Shown: one piece after another, positions 21,267 to 31,098 of the stretch | Layout: the number at the start of each line of letters is the position of its first letter | How positions within the stretch are numbered: the stretch's first letter is position 1 | From: Limnobacter humi | Lineage (GTDB): Bacteria; Pseudomonadota; Gammaproteobacteria; Burkholderiales; Burkholderiaceae_B | DNA: 64,000 nucleotides | Assembly: GCF_024518835.1 (NCBI RefSeq) | Contig: NZ_JANIGO010000003.1 | Coordinates: 372,001-436,000 of the forward strand | Direction: 5' to 3' | Program-made: the position numbers and the translations under genes | The notes under the pieces: generated by a model | Database searches by the model: none | What the model saw: only the letters and a program-made list of their open reading frames with translations | Told to the model about the DNA's origin: nothing

Positions 21267-24200
21267 CTACCTCCCACCCCGACTGGCATAAAAATCAGCC
21301 AGTGCTTTGGCCGTGTGCCCAGGCTTTTTCCCTTTGCCCATGCCCTTGCCAGCCGCAATCTGCTGGGGGCTACCCTGGGCTACCAAATCGCCACCACCCA
21401 CACCCGCTTCTGGCCCCATGTCGATCACCCAGTCGGCCTGGGCGATTAAATCCAGGTCATGCTCAATCACCACCACCGTGTGGCCGGCATCCACCAGGCG
21501 GTGCAGCACGGCAATCAGCTTTTCCACATCGTTCATGTGAAGGCCCACGGTGGGTTCATCCAGCACATAGAGGGTGTGGGGGTTCACCCGGTTGTCACGC
21601 ACCTTGGTGAGCTCGGTCACCAACTTGATGCGCTGGGCCTCGCCACCACTCAAGGTGGGGCTGGGCTGGCCCAGGGTGAGGTAACCCAAACCCACATCGG
21701 CCAACAATTGAAGCGGTTGGGCAATGCTGGGGTGTGCGGTAAAAAACGGTGCAGCTTCTTCCACGCTCATGTTGAGAATGTCAGCGGCGGTTTTATCACG
21801 CCAGGCCACCTGTAGGGTGTCGGGGTTGAAGCGTGCGCCCCGGCAAGCCTCACACAGCACCTTCACATCGGGCAGGAAATTCATCTCAATGGTTTGCATA
21901 CCCTGCCCTTCACACACCGGGCATCGCCCAGGGCCGGTGTTGAAGCTGAAACGGCTGGCTTCAAAGCCGCGCAGACGGGCTTCGGCGGTGTCGGCCATCA
22001 CATTTCGAATGCGGTTCCAAAAGCCAATGTAGGTGGCTGGGCAGCTTCGCGGTGTTTTGCCAATCGGGGTTTGGTCCACTTCCAGCACACGGGCCACGGC
22101 GGGCGCATTCTCAATGGTATCGCAAGCAAACCAGTTCGAATGAACTCCGCCGCGCTTGCTTTGGGTGGCCACGGCTTGCCGCATATTGGCCAGCAAAATG
22201 TCGCGGGCCAAGGTGGACTTGCCCGAGCCCGATACACCGGTAACAGCGACCAAACGGCCCAAGGGAATGTCCACATTCAAGCCTGCAATGTTATGCAGTG
22301 TGGCGTTGCGAATGCGCAGGTGCTGCGTGGCTTTGTCCACCGGGCGGCGCGGTTGCAGCAGATGTGGAATGGGTTGCTTCAGATAGCGGCCGGTGAGCGA
22401 GTTGGGGTCGTTGCGGACCTCGGCCACACTGCCTTGCGACATGATGGCCCCACCCAGTTTGCCGGCGCCTGGGCCAATGTCCACCAAACGGTCTGCACGC
22501 AGCATGGTGTCAATGTCGTGCTCCACCACCACCAGCGTATTGCCCTTGCTGCGCAATTCATCCAACGCATCCAGCAGGCGGTGGTTGTCGCGGGTGTGCA
22601 GGCCGATGGTGGGCTCATCCAGCACGTAACAGACACCGCGCAGGTTGGTACCCAACTGGCTGGCCAGGCGTATACGCTGGGCCTCACCTCCACTCAAGGT
22701 CGGTGCACTGCGGTTTAGGTGCAGGTAATCCAGCCCCACTTGTTTCAGGAACTTCAAGCGGCCGGCCATTTCAATGCGAATGTCTTTGGCGATGCTTTCT
22801 TCACGGGTGTCCAGCTTCAGGGCTTCCACCCATTGCAAGGCATCGGTCACGGTTTGGTCGGCCAACTGCGCAATGCTCTGGCCCTTGAACTTCACCGCCA
22901 AGGCTGTTGCATTCAAGCGTTGTCCATCACATTGGCCGCACACCATGCTGTCGCCCAAATAAGCGGCTTCATCGGCCTCGTCGTCTTGCTCACTGCGGTC
23001 TTGCTCAGCCAGCCAGCGGCCTTCCTCACCCGTGGTGTCAGCATCAAACCCGTCCACCTTTTCCCCCACACCAAAGCAGCTGGGGCACCAGCCATGCTTG
23101 CTGTTGTAGCTGAATAAACGCGGATCAAGTTCCGGGAAACTGCGAGCACAACTGGGGCAAGCGCGCTTGGTCGAGAAAAACTGAATGGATGGTACAAGCT
23201 CACGGCCTGAGCCCATTGACCCCACCATAGACTCCACCATCACGGTACCTTTGCCAAATTCCAACGCACGGGCCAACACCTCACGCAGGTTTTTTTCAGC
23301 TTTGGCATTCACGGTGAGCGTGCCCACCGGTACTTCAATGTGGTGTTCCTGATAGCGAGCCAATTTGGGCCAGGGGTTGGTGGGTACATATGCACCATCC
23401 ACCCGCAAGCGTTCATAGCCGCGGTCCACCGCCCATTTGGCGATTTCGTTGTAAATGCCTTTGCGGCCTTGTACCAACGGGGCCAACAAGGTGATTTCCT
23501 TGCCTTTGTACGCCTGCATGATTTGCGCCAGCATCGAGTCCATGCTTTGCGGGGCAATCGGCACCTCGCAACTGGGGCAGTGTTGAATGCCCAACTTGAC
23601 GAACAATAAGCGCAGGAAGTGGTACACCTCGGTGACGGTGGCCACTGTACTTTTACGACCACCCCGGCTGGTGCGCTGCTCAATGGCCACCGTGGGTGGA
23701 ATACCAAAAATGGCATCCACCTCGGGCTTGGCTGCAGGCTGCACAAATTGGCGGGCGTAGGCGTTCAGGCTTTCCAAATAGCGACGCTGGCCTTCTGAAA
23801 ACAGAATATCAAACGCCAGCGTTGATTTACCGCTGCCCGAGGGGCCTGTGATGACTGTCATCTGCTCCCTGGGAATGGTCAGACTGATGTTTTTCAAGTT
23901 GTGTTCGCGGGCATGCAGGATTTCAATACCGTCTGTATTCGCGCGGCGCATGGTGCTGACTGCATACATCGCCTCGGGCTCATGGGCTGAGCTCGAATTG
24001 TTGCCTGAATTGAGGTCAGCCGCCTTCAGCAAATTTCGCTGCTGTCGGTATTGCGCAATCGCGACACCAGTGTGGCTGTGGGTTTGTTTCGCCAATGTAT
24101 CCGGTGTACCTTGCGCAACCAGTTCACCACCAAACTCACCGGCCTCGGGCCCGAGGTCGATCAACCAGTCGGCTGCGCATATCACGTCCAGGTTGTGCTC

Positions 24201-27014
24201 CACCACCAACACACTGTGCCCGGCCTGTTGCAGCAGGCGAAGGCTTTTCATGAGCTTTGCCACATCGTCGAAGTGCAGGCCAGTGGTGGGCTCGTCAAAC
24301 ACAAACAGGTCACCCCGCTTGGCCACTTTCTGGCCACTGGCGGTGGGTTTCAATTCGGCCAAAAAGCCAGCGAGCTTTAAGCGCTGGGCCTCGCCACCGC
24401 TCAAGGTGGGCACGGGTTGACCCAGGCGCAGGTAGTTCAAACCCACTTCGGCCAAAGGCTGCAGGGTTTTGCGCAATGCGGTGTCGTGCTCAAACAGGTG
24501 CAGGGCTTGGTCCACAGTCAATTCCAGCACTTGGTGCATGTTCAACACCTGGCCTTTGCGCTCAATGGTCACCTCCAAGGCTTCGGGCCGGTAACGGGTG
24601 CCATTGCATTCACCGCAGCGCAAATACACGTCACTCAGGAATTGCATTTCCACATGTTCAAAGCCATTGCCACCGCACATGGGGCAACGGCCATCGCCAC
24701 TGTTGAAGCTGAAAAAGCCGGGTGTGTAGCCCCGTTCCACCGCCACGGTGGTTTTGGAAAATATTTTGCGAAGCTCATCAAATCCACCCACATAGCTGGC
24801 CGGGTTGCTTCGCGTGGTTTTGCCGATGGGGCTTTGGTCCACGAAGGCCAGTTGGCCGATCAACTCGGCGCCATCCAGTGAATCAAACTCGCCAGGGGCT
24901 TCGGTGGGTTCACCCTTGATCTTTTTTAGCGCGGGTACCAGCACGTCTTGCACCAAGGTAGATTTACCGGAACCGGAGACGCCAGTGAGTACCACCAGGC
25001 GATTCAGTGGCAACTTGAATTCGATGTTTTTGAGGTTGTTGGCCCGCACACCACGGAGCAGCAAATGCTGTGCCCCATCGCCCAGCGCGCGGTCGTTGGG
25101 GGCCACCACCTTCAGATCGCCTTTGAGGTAACGGGCAGTCAGGGAGTCTGCCGTTTCGATGGCTGCCGGGGCGCCGTCAAACACAATGTTGCCACCCGCC
25201 TCACCTGGGCCGGGACCGATGTCAATAAGGCGGTCGGCTTGGTTCATCAATTGCGGGTCGTGCTCCACCACCACCAAGGTGTTACCGGCCGCTTTCAGGC
25301 GCTGCATGGCCATGGCCACCCGGGCAATGTCACGGGGGTGCAGGCCCACCGAGGGCTCGTCCAGCACAAACAGGGTATTGACCAGCGAACTGCCCAAGGC
25401 TGTCGTCAGGTTGATGCGCTGCACCTCGCCACCGCTCAACGTGCGGCTTTGGCGGTCTAGCGTGAGGTACCCCAAACCCACTTGAATGAGGAACTGCAAG
25501 CGGGTGCGAATTTCCTGGAGCACCAGGTCGCTGGCTTCGTCCAACGCGCCGGGCAATTGTAGGTTTGCAAACAGCTGGGCCACGTTCACGAGCGGCATCA
25601 TCATGATGTCGTGGATGCTGTGGCGTGCGTGAGCACTTGGCAGCTTCCACAACAGTGAATCGGGCTTTAAGCGAGCACCGTGGCAAGCTGTGCAGGGCGT
25701 GTAACTGCGGTACTTCGACAACATGACCCGCACATGCATTTTGTAGGTGCGGGTTTCCAGCCATTCAAAAAAACGGGCCACACCATAAAACAAGGGGCCA
25801 TCCCAGTTGCCATCAAAATTGGCGTCGCCCTCAATCACCCACAGTTGGTGCTCTTCGGGCAAATGCTTGAAGGCAATGTCGGTGGCAATGCCCCGCTGCT
25901 TGGCGTATTTCACCAAGTCTTTTTGGCAAGGCTTGAAGCTTTCGGTTTGCCAGGGCTTCACGCACCCCTCGGCCAGCGATTTGTTCTCATCGGGAATCAC
26001 CAATCCGTAATCAATGCCAATGACTCGGCCAAAACCCCGGCAGGTTTCGCAGGCACCCAAGGGTGAATTGAACGAGAAGTGGCTGGGTAGTGGCTTGGCG
26101 TAGTCAATGTCACAGGTGGCGCAATGCAAGCCTTCGGAGAAACGCCACGGGGCAGCGGCCTCACCATCGTCATCCGGCAGTGCAAAAACATTCACCTTGC
26201 CCTTGCCCCGGTGCAGTGCCGACGCAATCGCATCACTCAAGCGGCTTTCTTCGGTATTGCCCACACGGAAACGGTCTTGCACCACATCCAGAGTTTTGTG
26301 GGTGGGTGCAGCACTGGCCACTGTTTTTTTAGACTTTGCTGGTTTTGCAGACTTTGTTTTGGTGGTCTTCTTGTTGTCTTTTTTGGAGTCTGCTGCCGCA
26401 TCCGCCAGTTGCACCAAGGTTTCGCGGTGCACACGGGTGTAGCCTTGCGCGCTTAAAAAGTCCTCAACGTCCTGTTCACTCAAGGTCAGTGGCACCGTCA
26501 CCGGGAATGTAATCACCACACGGGGATCATTCAGCGCGGCGGCCCGTTCACGCAGGCTGGCCTGAATGGTGGCGGGCGTGTCTTCCCGCACCCATTGCCC
26601 ACACTGGCGGCAGTGCAAATGGGCAGCGCGCGCATAAATCAATTTCAGGTGGTCGTTGATTTCGGTCATGGTGCCCACGGTGCTTCGGGACGTGCGCACG
26701 GGGTTGGCCTGGTCAATGGCGATGGCGGGTAAAACGCCGTCAATGCTGTCCACATCGGGCTTGTCCATGCGGTCCAAAAACTGGCGCGCATAGGGCGAGA
26801 AGGTTTCCACATATCGGCGCTGGCCTTCCGCATACAGCGTGTCGAACACCAATGAGCTTTTGCCGCTGCCACTCACCCCGGTAAACACGGTGATTTCACC
26901 GGTTTTTATATCCAGATCGAGGTTTTTGAGGTTGTGTTGCCGGGCACCGCGGATACGGATGAGCTTGCCAAGGTAGGTGGATTCAGTGGCGGGGGTGTCG
27001 CGCTTGCGTGTCAT
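21267..27014 (-). CDS. uvrA: UvrA excinuclease subunit, tandem fusion of two UvrA copies
   Basis: UvrA is the damage-recognition ATPase of nucleotide excision repair. This protein has 1915 residues, twice the usual ~940, and contains two complete UvrA units in one chain. Walker A motifs are near residues 46 (GVSGSGKSS), 683, 1060 and 1596; four LSGGE signatures are present. Both zinc modules are intact in each half (for example CPMCGGNGF and CPVCEGQGM). The halves join near residues 1000-1030. The first half has a Lys/Ala-rich insertion at about 208-240. Such double UvrA proteins are known in Burkholderiales, so it is not a misassembly. I saw no clear LexA box upstream. Confidence 0.95.
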   Translation of the reverse strand: MTRKRDTPATESTYLGKLIRIRGARQHNLKNLDLDIKTGEITVFTGVSGSGKSSLVFDTLYAEGQRRYVETFSPYARQFLDRMDKPDVDSIDGVLPAIAIDQANPVRTSRSTVGTMTEINDHLKLIYARAAHLHCRQCGQWVREDTPATIQASLRERAAALNDPRVVITFPVTVPLTLSEQDVEDFLSAQGYTRVHRETLVQLADAAADSKKDNKKTTKTKSAKPAKSKKTVASAAPTHKTLDVVQDRFRVGNTEESRLSDAIASALHRGKGKVNVFALPDDDGEAAAPWRFSEGLHCATCDIDYAKPLPSHFSFNSPLGACETCRGFGRVIGIDYGLVIPDENKSLAEGCVKPWQTESFKPCQKDLVKYAKQRGIATDIAFKHLPEEHQLWVIEGDANFDGNWDGPLFYGVARFFEWLETRTYKMHVRVMLSKYRSYTPCTACHGARLKPDSLLWKLPSAHARHSIHDIMMMPLVNVAQLFANLQLPGALDEASDLVLQEIRTRLQFLIQVGLGYLTLDRQSRTLSGGEVQRINLTTALGSSLVNTLFVLDEPSVGLHPRDIARVAMAMQRLKAAGNTLVVVEHDPQLMNQADRLIDIGPGPGEAGGNIVFDGAPAAIETADSLTARYLKGDLKVVAPNDRALGDGAQHLLLRGVRANNLKNIEFKLPLNRLVVLTGVSGSGKSTLVQDVLVPALKKIKGEPTEAPGEFDSLDGAELIGQLAFVDQSPIGKTTRSNPASYVGGFDELRKIFSKTTVAVERGYTPGFFSFNSGDGRCPMCGGNGFEHVEMQFLSDVYLRCGECNGTRYRPEALEVTIERKGQVLNMHQVLELTVDQALHLFEHDTALRKTLQPLAEVGLNYLRLGQPVPTLSGGEAQRLKLAGFLAELKPTASGQKVAKRGDLFVFDEPTTGLHFDDVAKLMKSLRLLQQAGHSVLVVEHNLDVICAADWLIDLGPEAGEFGGELVAQGTPDTLAKQTHSHTGVAIAQYRQQRNLLKAADLNSGNNSSSAHEPEAMYAVSTMRRANTDGIEILHAREHNLKNISLTIPREQMTVITGPSGSGKSTLAFDILFSEGQRRYLESLNAYARQFVQPAAKPEVDAIFGIPPTVAIEQRTSRGGRKSTVATVTEVYHFLRLLFVKLGIQHCPSCEVPIAPQSMDSMLAQIMQAYKGKEITLLAPLVQGRKGIYNEIAKWAVDRGYERLRVDGAYVPTNPWPKLARYQEHHIEVPVGTLTVNAKAEKNLREVLARALEFGKGTVMVESMVGSMGSGRELVPSIQFFSTKRACPSCARSFPELDPRLFSYNSKHGWCPSCFGVGEKVDGFDADTTGEEGRWLAEQDRSEQDDEADEAAYLGDSMVCGQCDGQRLNATALAVKFKGQSIAQLADQTVTDALQWVEALKLDTREESIAKDIRIEMAGRLKFLKQVGLDYLHLNRSAPTLSGGEAQRIRLASQLGTNLRGVCYVLDEPTIGLHTRDNHRLLDALDELRSKGNTLVVVEHDIDTMLRADRLVDIGPGAGKLGGAIMSQGSVAEVRNDPNSLTGRYLKQPIPHLLQPRRPVDKATQHLRIRNATLHNIAGLNVDIPLGRLVAVTGVSGSGKSTLARDILLANMRQAVATQSKRGGVHSNWFACDTIENAPAVARVLEVDQTPIGKTPRSCPATYIGFWNRIRNVMADTAEARLRGFEASRFSFNTGPGRCPVCEGQGMQTIEMNFLPDVKVLCEACRGARFNPDTLQVAWRDKTAADILNMSVEEAAPFFTAHPSIAQPLQLLADVGLGYLTLGQPSPTLSGGEAQRIKLVTELTKVRDNRVNPHTLYVLDEPTVGLHMNDVEKLIAVLHRLVDAGHTVVVIEHDLDLIAQADWVIDMGPEAGVGGGDLVAQGSPQQIAAGKGMGKGKKPGHTAKALADFYASRGGR

Positions 27015-27432: not shown

Positions 27433-28098
27433 TCACCAATGATCAGCGTCGTAGGGCGGATAGTCAGTCACCCGGACTTTGGCTTCATTCACAAAATAGT
27501 CAGGTTCCTGTGAAAAAGGCTCCACCCGGGAACGTACGGAGAAGTTGTTGATGAGTCGGTGCAGGTTGTTGGCTGCTGCCACAGTGCTGTTATAGGCGTT
27601 CCTCACCCTGGCCAGTTTTTCTGGCTTTGCTCCGGGTAATTCGGTGCCCCCGTAGGCCTGTTCCAATGGCTGGGGTTGATTGGCCACTGGATTGGCCTGA
27701 CAGTCTGGTGCATTGCACGGATCAAGCACCGCAGCCACCAGGTATTCAGCTGTACGAACATGGGTTTTGAATGTGCCATGTTCCTGCTCCAGTTCAGTGA
27801 TTGATCGAGGTGATGTTCCTCTCCAGATTCGCTGAAGATCGCTCTGGTACGTCGGAATGATCGCTTTCAAGCAGTATTTCAAATTGCTGCTGAGTCGGTA
27901 TGCACGTTTGGCAGACTCTTTCAGCGCTGGGCAGGCATTCCGCCCGAGGGACTTCACCGCATCTTTCAGCGCACAAGACTGGGCTTTGATTTCCCGCGCC
28001 GGCACAAGCCAAGCTTCATAGGCTTGTACGCTTCTGTCGATATTCTCCCGAAGTAACTGGGTATTCAACCGCACGGAAAGGCAGTGATCGGAATACAT
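27433..28098 (-). CDS. Orphan helical protein, 221 residues
   Basis: I do not recognise this protein. It is soluble-looking, helical and contains six or seven cysteines in its first two-thirds (for example ACPALKESAKRAYRLSSNLK and DPCNAPDC), which could be metal ligands or chance. No signal peptide, membrane segment or known motif is seen. The C-terminus is Tyr/Asp-rich (DYPPYDADHW). It is read in the same direction as aroG but after the aroG terminator (28197-28227), so it needs its own promoter, which I could not identify. The small frame at 27119-27372 follows by 60 bases and may be co-transcribed. Confidence 0.55.
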   Translation of the reverse strand: MYSDHCLSVRLNTQLLRENIDRSVQAYEAWLVPAREIKAQSCALKDAVKSLGRNACPALKESAKRAYRLSSNLKYCLKAIIPTYQSDLQRIWRGTSPRSITELEQEHGTFKTHVRTAEYLVAAVLDPCNAPDCQANPVANQPQPLEQAYGGTELPGAKPEKLARVRNAYNSTVAAANNLHRLINNFSVRSRVEPFSQEPDYFVNEAKVRVTDYPPYDADHW

Positions 28099-28245: not shown

Positions 28246-29313
28246 TTACTGCCCCGCAGAGGCCAGCCGGCGTTTGCGAACACCGGTCGCCAGGGCCTCC
28301 AGCACCTGCAGGCTGTCATCCCAACCCACGCAACCATCGGTAATGCTTTGACCGTACGTGAGTGGCTTACCTGGCTCCAGGTCTTGACGCCCTTCCACCA
28401 GGTGGCTTTCCACCATCACACCCATGATGCGGCGGTCACCGGCAGCCAGTTGTTCCGCAATGTTGTCGCAAACACCCACCTGGTTTTTGGGCACCTTGCT
28501 GCTGTTGCCATGGCTGGCATCGATCATGATGCGGGCAGCCAGGCCCGATTTGCCGATTTCAACCGCGGCCGCTTCCACGCTGGCTGCATCATAATTGGGC
28601 GCTTTGCCGCCACGCAAAATTACATGGCAGTCTTCGTTGCCGGTGGTGCTGACAATGGCGCTGCGGCCTTCCTTGGTGACGCTCAGGAAATGGTGGGGAT
28701 GCTGGGCAGCCTTGATGGCATCCACTGCGATTTTCACATTACCATCGGTGCCGTTCTTGAAACCCACTGGGCAGCTCAAGCCGCTGGACAGTTCGCGGTG
28801 AATCTGGCTTTCAGTGGTGCGGGCACCAATCGCCCCCCAACTCACCAGGTCAGCGATGTACTGCGGGGTGATCATGTCCAGAAACTCGGTGCCGGCTGGC
28901 AGGCCCAGGCTGTTGATGTTCAACAGCACTTCACGCGCCATGCGCAAACCTTTGTTAATCTGAAAGCTTCCATCCAGGTCGGGGTCGTTGATCAGTCCTT
29001 TCCAGCCTACGGTGGTACGGGGCTTTTCGAAATACACCCGCATCACGATTTCAAGGTCTTCTGCGTACTGTTCGCGGTAGGCCATCAGCTTGCTGGCGTA
29101 TTCCATGGCAGCCTTGGTGTCGTGGATGGAGCAAGGGCCCATCACCACGATCAGGCGGTCATCAGCCCCGTGCAAAATTTGGTGCAAGGCCTTGCGGCAA
29201 CCCGACACCGTTTGGGCGATGGCCTCGGTGATGGGCACCTCTGCGATAACCGCTGCTGGGGTTTGCAGTTCTTTGATTTCTTTGATTCTCAAGTCGTCTG
29301 TTACCGTGTTCAT
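28246..29313 (-). CDS. aroG: 3-deoxy-7-phosphoheptulonate synthase (DAHP synthase, AroG type)
   Basis: DAHP synthase joins phosphoenolpyruvate and erythrose-4-phosphate, the first and most regulated step of the shikimate pathway. The 355-residue length is that of the class I AroFGH group. Signatures: VMGPCSIHDTKAAMEYA, YFEKPRTTVGWKGLINDPDL, SWGAIGARTTESQIHRELSS and PVGFKNGTDG, with late MIDASHGNSSK. The start at 29313 has GGAG upstream; the frame stays open further upstream only through the leader terminator, which is not coding. Expression is predicted to be attenuated by the leader at 29374-29522. Which amino acid inhibits the enzyme cannot be told here. Confidence 0.95.
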   Translation of the reverse strand: MNTVTDDLRIKEIKELQTPAAVIAEVPITEAIAQTVSGCRKALHQILHGADDRLIVVMGPCSIHDTKAAMEYASKLMAYREQYAEDLEIVMRVYFEKPRTTVGWKGLINDPDLDGSFQINKGLRMAREVLLNINSLGLPAGTEFLDMITPQYIADLVSWGAIGARTTESQIHRELSSGLSCPVGFKNGTDGNVKIAVDAIKAAQHPHHFLSVTKEGRSAIVSTTGNEDCHVILRGGKAPNYDAASVEAAAVEIGKSGLAARIMIDASHGNSSKVPKNQVGVCDNIAEQLAAGDRRIMGVMVESHLVEGRQDLEPGKPLTYGQSITDGCVGWDDSLQVLEALATGVRKRRLASAGQ

Positions 29314-29373
29314 TGCCAATTCTCCTGAGCGCTGGCGTGTTTTTTTGCAACCCGTTTTCGCGACCCATGGGTT

Positions 29374-29410
29374 AAAAAAAAACCGCCAGGTATTCAGAGC
29401 CTGGCGGTTT
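29374..29410 (-). terminator. Attenuator terminator upstream of aroG
   Basis: On the minus strand AACCGCCAGG pairs perfectly with CCTGGCGGTT around a nine-base loop, followed by nine T residues. It sits between the leader peptide and aroG, 60 bases before the aroG start, as in ribosome-mediated attenuation. Confidence 0.9.
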
Positions 29411-29435
29411 TGGGTGTTTGGTAGTTCAATGTGTG

Positions 29436-29522
29436 TTACGCACAACCCTCGTCCGCCGCTTGCCAAAACCAGGCAAAGAAGCTGTAAAACGCGTAAAAAG
29501 AATGGGCGTGTGTCAAATTCAT
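29436..29522 (-). CDS. Leader peptide of aroG, rich in Phe, Tyr and Trp
   Basis: A 28-codon frame that starts at ATG 29522 and stops at TAA 29438-29436, 25 bases before the attenuator terminator. Its centre reads FYAFYSFFAWFW: five Phe, two Tyr and two Trp in twelve codons. This is the composition expected of an attenuation leader sensing aromatic aminoacyl-tRNAs, comparable in idea to the pheA leader of enteric bacteria. A modest AAAGG is close to the ATG. When aromatic amino acids are scarce, ribosomes should stall in this run and prevent the terminator from forming. The alternative antiterminator hairpin could not be drawn with confidence by eye. Confidence 0.85.
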   Translation of the reverse strand: MNLTHAHSFYAFYSFFAWFWQAADEGCA

Positions 29523-29570
29523 GCCTTTACTCTAAACGATTTTTGCTGTGCCAGGCAAGCCAAGTACTGG

Positions 29571-29576
29571 ATTGTA
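29571..29576 (-). promoter_or_regulatory. Possible -10 element for the aroG leader
   Basis: TACAAT on the minus strand lies about 50 bases upstream of the leader peptide start, a good distance for the leader transcript. No strong -35 match is seen at 17 bases, so this is tentative. Confidence 0.35.
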
Positions 29577-29628
29577 ACAAGGTTTTCTGTGGTCTCGCTG
29601 ACACAGCACATGCCCGGACGGTTGCCAG

Positions 29629-31098
29629 TTACTGGGTTCCACCCATCACCAAGCCGTCGATCCGCAGGGTGGGCTGCCCCACACCAACCGGCACGCTTTG
29701 ACCTTCTTTGCCACAAGTGCCCACACCGTCGTCCAAGGCCATGTCGTTGCCCACCATGGAGATTTTGGTGAGGGAGTCGGGCCCGTTGCCGATCAGCGTG
29801 GCGCCTTTAAGCGGATGGGTAATTTTGCCGTTCTGGATTTTGTAGGCCAATGAGGCAGAAAACACAAACTTGCCGCTGGTGATGTCCACCTGGCCACCCC
29901 CAAAGTTCACGGCGTAAACCCCGTCCTTCACGCTGGCAATGATTTCCTCGGGGGTTTTGTCGCCATTGAGCATGTAGGTGTTGGTCATGCGGGGCATCGG
30001 CAGGTGGGCAAAACTTTCTCGACGGCCATTGCCGGTAACGGGCATTTTCATGAGGCGTGCGTTGGTGATGTCCTGAATATAGCCTTTGAGAATGCCGTCT
30101 TCAATCAGCGTGGTGCATTCGGTTTTGTTGCCTTCGTCGTCGACGTTTAGCGAGCCCCGGCGGCCTGCCAGCGTGCCATCGTCCACAATGGTCACGCCCT
30201 TGGCCGCCACACGCTGACCGATCATGCCCGAGAACGCACTGCTGCCCTTGCGGTTGAAATCGCCTTCCAGACCGTGGCCAATGGCCTCATGCAACAAAAT
30301 GCCGGGCCAGCCTGAACCCAATACCACCGTTTGTGCGCCAGCCGGTGCAGGTTTGGCCTCCAGATTCACCAAAGCCTCATCCACGGCTTTGTGGGCGTGT
30401 GCTTGAAGAAACTCGTCGGTGAAGCGCGCAAAATCAAAACGGCCTCCAGCGCCAGAGTTGCCGGTTTCTCTGCGGCCTTTGTGTTCAACCACCACACTCA
30501 CGTTCACACGCACCAAGGGGCGTACATCAGCAGCCAGCACACCATCGCTGCGGGCCACCAGCACCACATCATAAGCCCCAACAATGTTGGCCATGACCTG
30601 CTTTACACGCGGGTCCCGCTTGCGGGCAAACTGTTCCAAACGCTTCAGCAGGGCCACTTTCTCGGTGGAGCTGAGGGATGGAATGGGATTGAGTGGCGCA
30701 TACAGCGCCAAACCTGAATTGGCGGTAAAGCCTTTGCCGGTTTTGAGGTTGCGGTTCGCTGTTTTACCCAGCGCGGCAATTTCACGCACACTTTTGGCAG
30801 CCGCCAGAATGGGTTTCAACGCAATGTCGTCGGAATAGGCAAAGGCGGTTTTTTCGCCGCTGACCGCACGCACGCCCACACCTTGCTCAATGTTGTAACT
30901 GCCGCTTTTGACGATGCCTTCATCCAGCGACCAGCCCTCCACGCACCCGTACTGAAAATACAGGTCGGCAAAATCCACCTTGTGGGTAAACATTTCGCCA
31001 AAAGCTTTATGCACCACCTGTTCGTCAATGCCATACGGCGTCCACAGCAGGTTTTGGGCGATGGCGAGGTTTTCGATGGTGGGATCTACAACGTTCAT
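29629..31098 (-). CDS. tldD: Metalloprotease TldD
   Basis: TldD forms a protease complex with TldE/PmbA that processes peptides such as microcins and acts with CcdA-type antitoxins in enteric bacteria. The 489-residue length matches. The zinc motif HEAIGHGLEGD (HExxxH) is seen, with RGSLNVDDEG and FAHLPMPRMTNTYMLNGD between it and the C-terminal CGKEGQSVPVGVGQPTLRI region, all TldD features. It starts 15 bases after the nitrilase-family gene in a yhdP-nitrilase-tldD run; yhdP and tldD are neighbours in many proteobacteria. The partner tldE is not in the window. Confidence 0.95.
   Translation of the reverse strand: MNVVDPTIENLAIAQNLLWTPYGIDEQVVHKAFGEMFTHKVDFADLYFQYGCVEGWSLDEGIVKSGSYNIEQGVGVRAVSGEKTAFAYSDDIALKPILAAAKSVREIAALGKTANRNLKTGKGFTANSGLALYAPLNPIPSLSSTEKVALLKRLEQFARKRDPRVKQVMANIVGAYDVVLVARSDGVLAADVRPLVRVNVSVVVEHKGRRETGNSGAGGRFDFARFTDEFLQAHAHKAVDEALVNLEAKPAPAGAQTVVLGSGWPGILLHEAIGHGLEGDFNRKGSSAFSGMIGQRVAAKGVTIVDDGTLAGRRGSLNVDDEGNKTECTTLIEDGILKGYIQDITNARLMKMPVTGNGRRESFAHLPMPRMTNTYMLNGDKTPEEIIASVKDGVYAVNFGGGQVDITSGKFVFSASLAYKIQNGKITHPLKGATLIGNGPDSLTKISMVGNDMALDDGVGTCGKEGQSVPVGVGQPTLRIDGLVMGGTQ

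Follow-up and report, generated by a model that had tools for sequence, protein, structure and literature searches.

A leader peptide containing Phe-Tyr-Phe precedes the DAHP synthase gene at the aroR-aroF locus of Corynebacterium glutamicum, where Phe limitation raises transcription (excerpts of PMC11802643 and PMC4046766) and Tyr availability is reported to have no effect (excerpts of PMC11802643). In Sinorhizobium meliloti, the trpL leader RNA (rnTrpL) has its 5' end at the AUG, and its activity in trans has been demonstrated (excerpts of PMC7298713). For Escherichia coli and Shewanella, an aroF "attenuator sensing tyr-tRNA" and a possible termination at aroH have been proposed (Table 3 of PMC2659441), while 82 short 5'UTR transcripts, among which an aroG leader may occur, are listed for Burkholderia cenocepacia (Table S3 of PMC5688073). 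No description of an aroG attenuator in Burkholderiales was found in searches of open-access papers, and the excerpts of PMC2965389, PMC5343134, PMC2864571, PMC5770649 and PMC10987360 give none.

The present analysis concerns a locus in a 64-kb window (the whole stretch of DNA that was analysed) at which a first-pass annotation had proposed an attenuator with an aromatic leader peptide ahead of aroG. This proposal is supported by conservation, by a conserved antiterminator and by stall folding resembling that of E. coli trp, and we assign a probability of roughly 0.88 to the locus being a ribosome-mediated transcription attenuator of aroG.

Organisation of the leader, predicted terminator and putative promoter

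The ORF, the terminator and the complementarity between them, like their conservation, are read from the sequence (Table 1). As in attenuators, a short ORF rich in codons for the end products of the pathway was found, and its 28 codons, with nine Phe, Tyr or Trp codons in twelve, are those first described. Across the six frames of the 64-kb window, at least seven aromatic codons occur in 6 of the 95,512 stop-free 12-codon stretches, all six inside the leader ORF, and no second stretch reaches nine in twelve. A chance ORF was rejected on this density together with the detector controls given below.

Between this ORF and the biosynthetic gene lies a predicted intrinsic terminator. The perfect pairing of the hairpin and the nine T residues after it agree with the first-pass annotation; its count of ten pairs falls between the 8 of the CCGCCAGG core and the 12 obtained by adding A-T pairs formed with the T run, and the distance from the leader stop to the hairpin, given there as 25 bases, measures 24 nt. 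A generic promoter and terminator scan, with a loop limit of 8 nt against the 9 nt present here, called neither this terminator nor its promoter.

Table 1. Features of the aroG leader region (positions within the window)
Feature	Position	Strand	Details
Putative -35	29553-29558	minus	TTGCCT; consensus position only; 18-nt spacer to -10
Putative -10	29529-29534	minus	TAGAGT; 6 nt before leader ATG
Leader peptide ORF	29522-29436	minus	MNLTHAHSFYAFYSFFAWFWQAADEGCA; 28 codons, without Shine-Dalgarno
Control codons	29498-29463	minus	FYAFYSFFAWFW; 9/12 codons aromatic: 5 Phe, 2 Tyr, 2 Trp
Segment 2	29457-29453, 29448-29445	minus	GGCGG + GGGU; within leader codons 3' of the aromatic run
Leader stop codon	29438-29436	minus	
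Segment 3	29415-29412, 29411-29400	minus	ACCC + terminator 5' arm AAAACCGCCAGG
Terminator hairpin (predicted)	29411-29379	minus	AAAACCGCCAGG / CTCTGAATA / CCTGGCGGTTTT; perfect pairing, GC-rich, 9-nt loop
Segment 4	29390-29379, 29382-29374	minus	terminator 3' arm CCTGGCGGTTTT + T run
AGGAG ahead of aroG	29326-29322	minus	
aroG, type I DAHP synthase	28246-29313	minus	start ATG at 29313; NCBIfam NF006723, Pfam PF00793

The gene that follows the leader is indeed aroG, identified as a DAHP synthase gene by both family models. It is the sole type I DAHP synthase match in the focal genome at E ≤ 0.001, and neither a type II DAHP synthase nor TrpR was found in that genome, so the attenuator may be its main transcriptional control. 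The closest named relatives of AroG are six Limnobacter records with 83-93% identity. A 221-aa ORF downstream of aroG (27433-28098, minus) matched nothing in Pfam or NCBIfam at E ≤ 0.001, and a 1,915-aa ORF (21267-27014, minus) looks by eye like two head-to-tail fused UvrA proteins.

At the focal locus, GGCGG(n)GGG of segment 2 can pair with CCC(n)CCGCC at the terminator. GGCGG, the partner of CCGCC in the terminator 5' arm, occurs near the leader end at 70 of 73 dereplicated loci, compared with 4.6 of 73 expected from shuffles of the same stretches; GGTGG is found in two loci and neither motif in L031. A second helix, formed by GGG with the CCC immediately 5' of the hairpin, is available in Limnobacter, Bordetella and many Burkholderia. 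The outer pairs seem to covary by eye (CTGGCGG with CCGCCAG, CCGGCGG with CCGCCGG), many Burkholderia having a G-U pair instead. An alternative antiterminator seen by eye at the focal locus, in which GCCTGGTTTTGG (the Trp codons) would pair with the terminator arm, was rejected because a ribosome stalled on the Trp codons would cover it.

The choice of codons in the leader was assessed by scoring the pairing with segment 3 after 300 random synonymous recodings at each of 82 loci. Natural codons paired better than the recodings, with a mean z of -1.75 over loci that are related, so that the tests are not independent; the focal locus lies at 1.3%. The best 5% was reached by 41 of the 82 loci, the other 41 failing at that level.

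The putative promoter TTGCCT-18-TAGAGT matches the consensus at 8 of 12 positions and falls short of the generic scan's threshold, and Limnobacter relatives have TACATT, TAAATT or TAATCT at or close to the place of the focal -10. Over 98 loci, the promoter-like score peaks for -10 hexamers that end 6-8 nt upstream of the leader ATG (z 5.6-5.7). It rises again at 13-16 nt (z up to 4.8) and, mainly owing to Burkholderia and Paraburkholderia, at 35-38 nt (z up to 8.3). Shine-Dalgarno motifs are rare at the leader starts, AGGA, GGAG or GAGG being present in 7 of 83 (4.4 expected from shuffles) and lacking in 76; among the aroG starts of the first relative set described below, 60 of 70 have one. 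The position of the putative promoter suggests that Limnobacter transcripts probably begin at the leader AUG or close to it, with leaderless initiation, and those of the Burkholderia group probably a little upstream of it. The aroF attenuator transcripts of C. glutamicum are reportedly leaderless, a finding attributed to Neshat et al. in 2014.

Predicted behaviour with a stalled ribosome

The stall logic of the proposed mechanism comes from folding, and its promoter, leader translation and starvation response are what we infer around it. The transcript would begin at or near the leader AUG and be translated immediately. If charged tRNAs for Phe, Tyr and Trp are ample, the ribosome would come to rest at the stop codon and cover segment 2, whereupon segments 3 and 4 would form the terminator and transcription would stop ahead of aroG. 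Scarcity of any one of the three tRNAs would stall the ribosome upstream, between F9 and W18; segment 2, left free, would pair with segment 3 while segment 4 emerges, the terminator would be pre-empted and aroG would be transcribed.

Stalls were modelled with the leading edge of the ribosome assumed to lie 12 nt beyond the first A-site base, the RNA being folded before segment 4 exists. The first-pass annotation had suggested folding the RNA in search of an antiterminator that pairs with the first arm of the terminator, and the GGCGG(n)GGG pairing is predicted in that role, with a probability of 0.96-1.0 for stalls at F9, Y10, F12, Y13, F15, F16 and W18. The value drops to 0.46 at F19 and 0.30 at W20, and reaches 0.0 at the stop codon, where the terminator is predicted to form. 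An antiterminator that excludes the terminator, and one arm of which a ribosome resting on the stop codon would cover, is thus predicted, although its energy at the focal locus is unexceptional, 40, 54, 56, 83 and 119 of 200 shuffles being as good at W18, F16, F9, Y10 and Y13, respectively. Across 105 dereplicated loci, a mid-run stall gives a mean antiterminator probability of 0.985 (at least 0.9 in 99 of 105), compared with 0.48 for shuffled pre-terminator stretches; the mean folding energy is -24.3 kcal/mol against -19.0 kcal/mol in shuffles, but only 27 of the 105 loci have a better energy than every one of their 40 shuffles.

When segment 4 was included, the equilibrium favoured the terminator at each stall position tried at the focal locus (P 1.0), a result against the reading; antitermination must therefore be kinetic. 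E. coli trp, treated by the same procedure, gave antiterminator probabilities of 0.71 at both Trp codons and 0.01 at the stop, and 0.96-0.98 for the terminator at equilibrium with segment 4. The focal locus shares this stall and equilibrium pattern and therefore behaves like a proven attenuator, a kinetic choice being assumed in both. Also against the reading, the antiterminator is predicted for the untranslated focal leader (P 0.97). A 1:2 protecting hairpin, an accessory and non-defining trait of attenuators, is near zero at the focal locus; it was discarded as a general feature, being strong at some relatives' loci and zero at others.

Distribution among relatives and amino acids probably sensed

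A first set of relatives comprised AroG-fetched loci from 16 genus genomes and 80 named-genome records (Limnobacter and other Burkholderiales or betaproteobacteria), giving 96 upstream stretches, 95 of them usable after the too short L007 was set aside. In 82 of the 95, an ORF with at least five aromatic codons per twelve precedes a terminator, although the loci are not independent, the genus genomes and named records sharing species; the leader of L055, visible by eye, was dropped from this count by a length filter. Leaders are missing from L014 and L026 (Limnobacter MAG RU_2_4, apparently one contig twice) and L016, as well as from L033, L054, L057, L064, L084, L092, L093, L094 and L101; in two Limnobacter lineages no stretch upstream of aroG passed.

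In the wider order, AroG was matched at E ≤ 1e-30 in 240 of 300 genomes, and 96 upstream stretches were picked for family coverage among the matches listed, 28 of them being loci from the AroG search and 68 further stretches; one of them, L134, was cut wrongly where its contig ends. Of these, 28 pass (f1 7/9, f188 7/8, f190 4/7, f193 1/2, f199 1/5, f202 4/4 and f211 4/5), and seven more have the leader-and-terminator plan without reaching the threshold (L137, L145, L156, L158, L167, L178 and L194). Eighteen of the 25 sampled families have no passing stretch among the matches listed, some being represented by 1-3 stretches only (f186, f187, f191, f194, f195, f197, f200, f201, f204, f205, f207, f209, f212, f218, f222, f223, f226 and f230).

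Conservation of the peptide, which had been put forward as a check, is borne out by the combined detector for aromatic ORF and terminator: 109 of 191 aroG upstream stretches pass (81/95 in the first set, 28/96 in the survey), whereas none of 191 reverse strands and a single one of 1,910 dinucleotide shuffles do so, the detector having been designed after the first positives were known and related species being counted separately. Leaders occur in Limnobacter, Bordetella/Achromobacter, Burkholderia/Paraburkholderia, Cupriavidus, Oxalobacteraceae and unnamed families. The control codons are conserved across species despite changes: the runs of Limnobacter (HSFYAFFGFFAWFGQAAEEGCA), Burkholderia/Paraburkholderia (MSAKFYFYFFWYLRPLADREG), Bordetella/Achromobacter (MKFASPAFYFYFYGFLKPLAEEG) and Oxalobacteraceae (MSFARFYFYFYFSYSSPKAVEKR) differ in sequence and follow one plan, which also stays constant in such diverged runs as FYAFFGFFAWFG, FYFYFFWY, FYFYFYGF and FYFYFYFSY.

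Several other arrangements were observed at these loci. Tandem DAHP synthase genes stand behind a PYFFWFWF or PYFFWFWY leader at L212 and L213 (genomes G522 and G402), and AroG-like proteins with an extended N-terminus are encoded behind the runs FFAFYFWF and AYFFYFWF at L107 and L108 (genomes G122 and G239). The upstream gene tldD was recognised in 36 stretches. In those with a leader, the tldD-aroG gap measures 217-417 nt (n = 18); in 13 of the 18 without one, aroG begins 45-119 nt past tldD (L144, L093, L179, L094, L202, L057, L181, L064, L152, L171, L192, L016 and L170), and such closely placed aroG genes may be co-transcribed with tldD.

The 85 distinct runs contain 434 Phe, 200 Tyr and 41 Trp codons, Phe being present in all 85, Tyr in 84 and Trp in 37, and the aromatic codons of relatives differ by synonymous and F/Y exchanges. 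Among the 11 Limnobacter sequences compared, W18 is kept in 10 and position 20 is Trp in two; this agrees with the folding, in which W18 is able to act and W20 hardly so. W18 is probably the working Trp codon in the folding model, W20 probably lying too near to act. The runs thus suggest Phe and Tyr as the general signals, with Trp added in some lineages. The earlier claim that all three aromatic amino acids are sensed accordingly holds for the codons of the focal locus, but not for most relatives' runs with respect to Trp; of the two Trp codons at the focal locus, W18 alone is well placed.

An RNA model of the element (R1) proved of little use class-wide, and the AroG search with reading of the upstream DNA worked better: 78 of 369 class genomes match at E ≤ 0.01, many on the terminator alone. 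Seven matches, the focal locus included, reach at least 54 bits, and in six of these the first long downstream ORF is AroG-like, that of L105 lying in another frame. The next-best match in the focal genome (G000:C24:131604-131678, 32 bits) covers model positions 52-127, the terminator half only, and as far as the model shows it is no second aromatic leader.

One class-level R1 match, L120 (genome G197), pointed to a second gammaproteobacterial order. The DAHP synthase of this locus was matched in 17 of 58 genomes of that order, and 12 of the 17 loci have an FFYFSFF leader and a hairpin ahead of the DAHP synthase gene (L228-L238 and L240), nine passing the detector with its threshold lowered to 5 and three recognised by eye; five are without them. 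The terminator reads CCCCCAG/CTGGGGG, and most leaders contain CTGGGTGG, by eye the likely segment 2. Judged from these motifs, the element is built of other sequences on the same plan as the focal leader.

Alternative explanations and known systems

Sensing through the nascent peptide is known for other leaders, and the C-terminal pattern x-Ala-x...Gly, which is partly kept, could reflect a peptide that responds not to tRNA charging but to a signal such as drug-stalled ribosomes or an aromatic metabolite. We consider this improbable: Phe, Tyr, Trp and their spacing vary among families, which fits a requirement for codon content and not for a particular peptide, and the RNA pairing of GGCGG and GGG explains the kept pattern. 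Equally small is the chance that the chief action of the terminated leader RNA or its peptide is in trans, as with S. meliloti rnTrpL/peTrpL, attenuation being secondary; excerpts of PMC7298713 describe trpL there as a leaderless attenuator RNA with trans activity, and the focal leader also looks leaderless, but outside the switch parts its primary sequence is poorly conserved between families. Least credible of all is a plain tldD terminator joined to a chance aromatic reading of T-rich DNA. In its favour, tldD does lie upstream in the same direction and the many terminator-only R1 matches elsewhere show that the terminator sequence is not special; against it, the aromatic codons are kept through synonymous and F/Y exchanges, the detector controls (0/191 and 1/1,910) are nearly empty, and the terminator 3' core is copied inside the leader codons at 70 of 73 loci.

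Ribosome-mediated attenuation of aroG is therefore the reading carried forward. A known Rfam family was excluded: at the gathering score there was no match in 29000-29800 (best Thr_leader, 17.3 bits against 55) or in eight relatives. Because neither Rfam nor the open-access papers searched gave such an aroG element for Burkholderiales, the locus is best regarded as a new, broadly conserved case of classical ribosome-mediated attenuation. The first-pass remark that attenuation of DAHP synthase in betaproteobacteria was not a known case stands for Burkholderiales aroG within the papers searched and needs amending by the C. glutamicum aroR-aroF precedent, as far as its excerpts describe it.

Taken together, we lean towards a widespread, undescribed class of attenuators, leaderless in several lineages, that would act as an OR gate on two or three aromatic tRNAs and gate entry into the shikimate pathway across much of Burkholderiales, the sensed set being retuned by codon position relative to segment 2, with a counterpart of different terminator sequence in another gammaproteobacterial order. 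Control of the first step of aromatic synthesis is thereby proposed for Burkholderia, Bordetella, Cupriavidus, Oxalobacteraceae and Limnobacter. Differences among the leaders in Trp content and in where the codons sit provide a natural series on stall position versus amino acid specificity, and the leader, apparently lacking a ribosome binding site, lends itself to studies of attenuation on leaderless RNA.

The closest precedent is aroR-aroF, which, in the excerpts cited above, has in common an aromatic leader peptide ahead of a DAHP synthase gene; C. glutamicum belongs to another phylum and has a shorter run, whereas the leader described here counts as many as nine aromatic codons, with Trp among them. 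The enterobacterial trpL-trpE and pheL-pheA leaders likewise have control codons, a terminator and an antiterminator, stall behaviour having been matched with E. coli trp only; those leaders serve terminal branches and one amino acid each, whereas the focal leader concerns the shared entry step of the pathway and, as predicted, two or three amino acids. Unlike the focal leader, that of E. coli trp is equipped with a ribosome binding site and a 1:2 protecting hairpin. S. meliloti rnTrpL, as excerpted, begins at the AUG, a 5' end also suggested by the focal promoter position, but responds to Trp only and controls trpE(G). For the aroF and aroH elements, the table cited above gives no comparable leader peptide, and they concern other genes in other taxa. 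Attenuators of the ilvGMEDA type are alike in serving several end products with one leader, and respond to branched-chain amino acids. Against this background, the distinctive traits of the proposed aroG attenuator are its lineage-specific Trp codons and its probably leaderless start.
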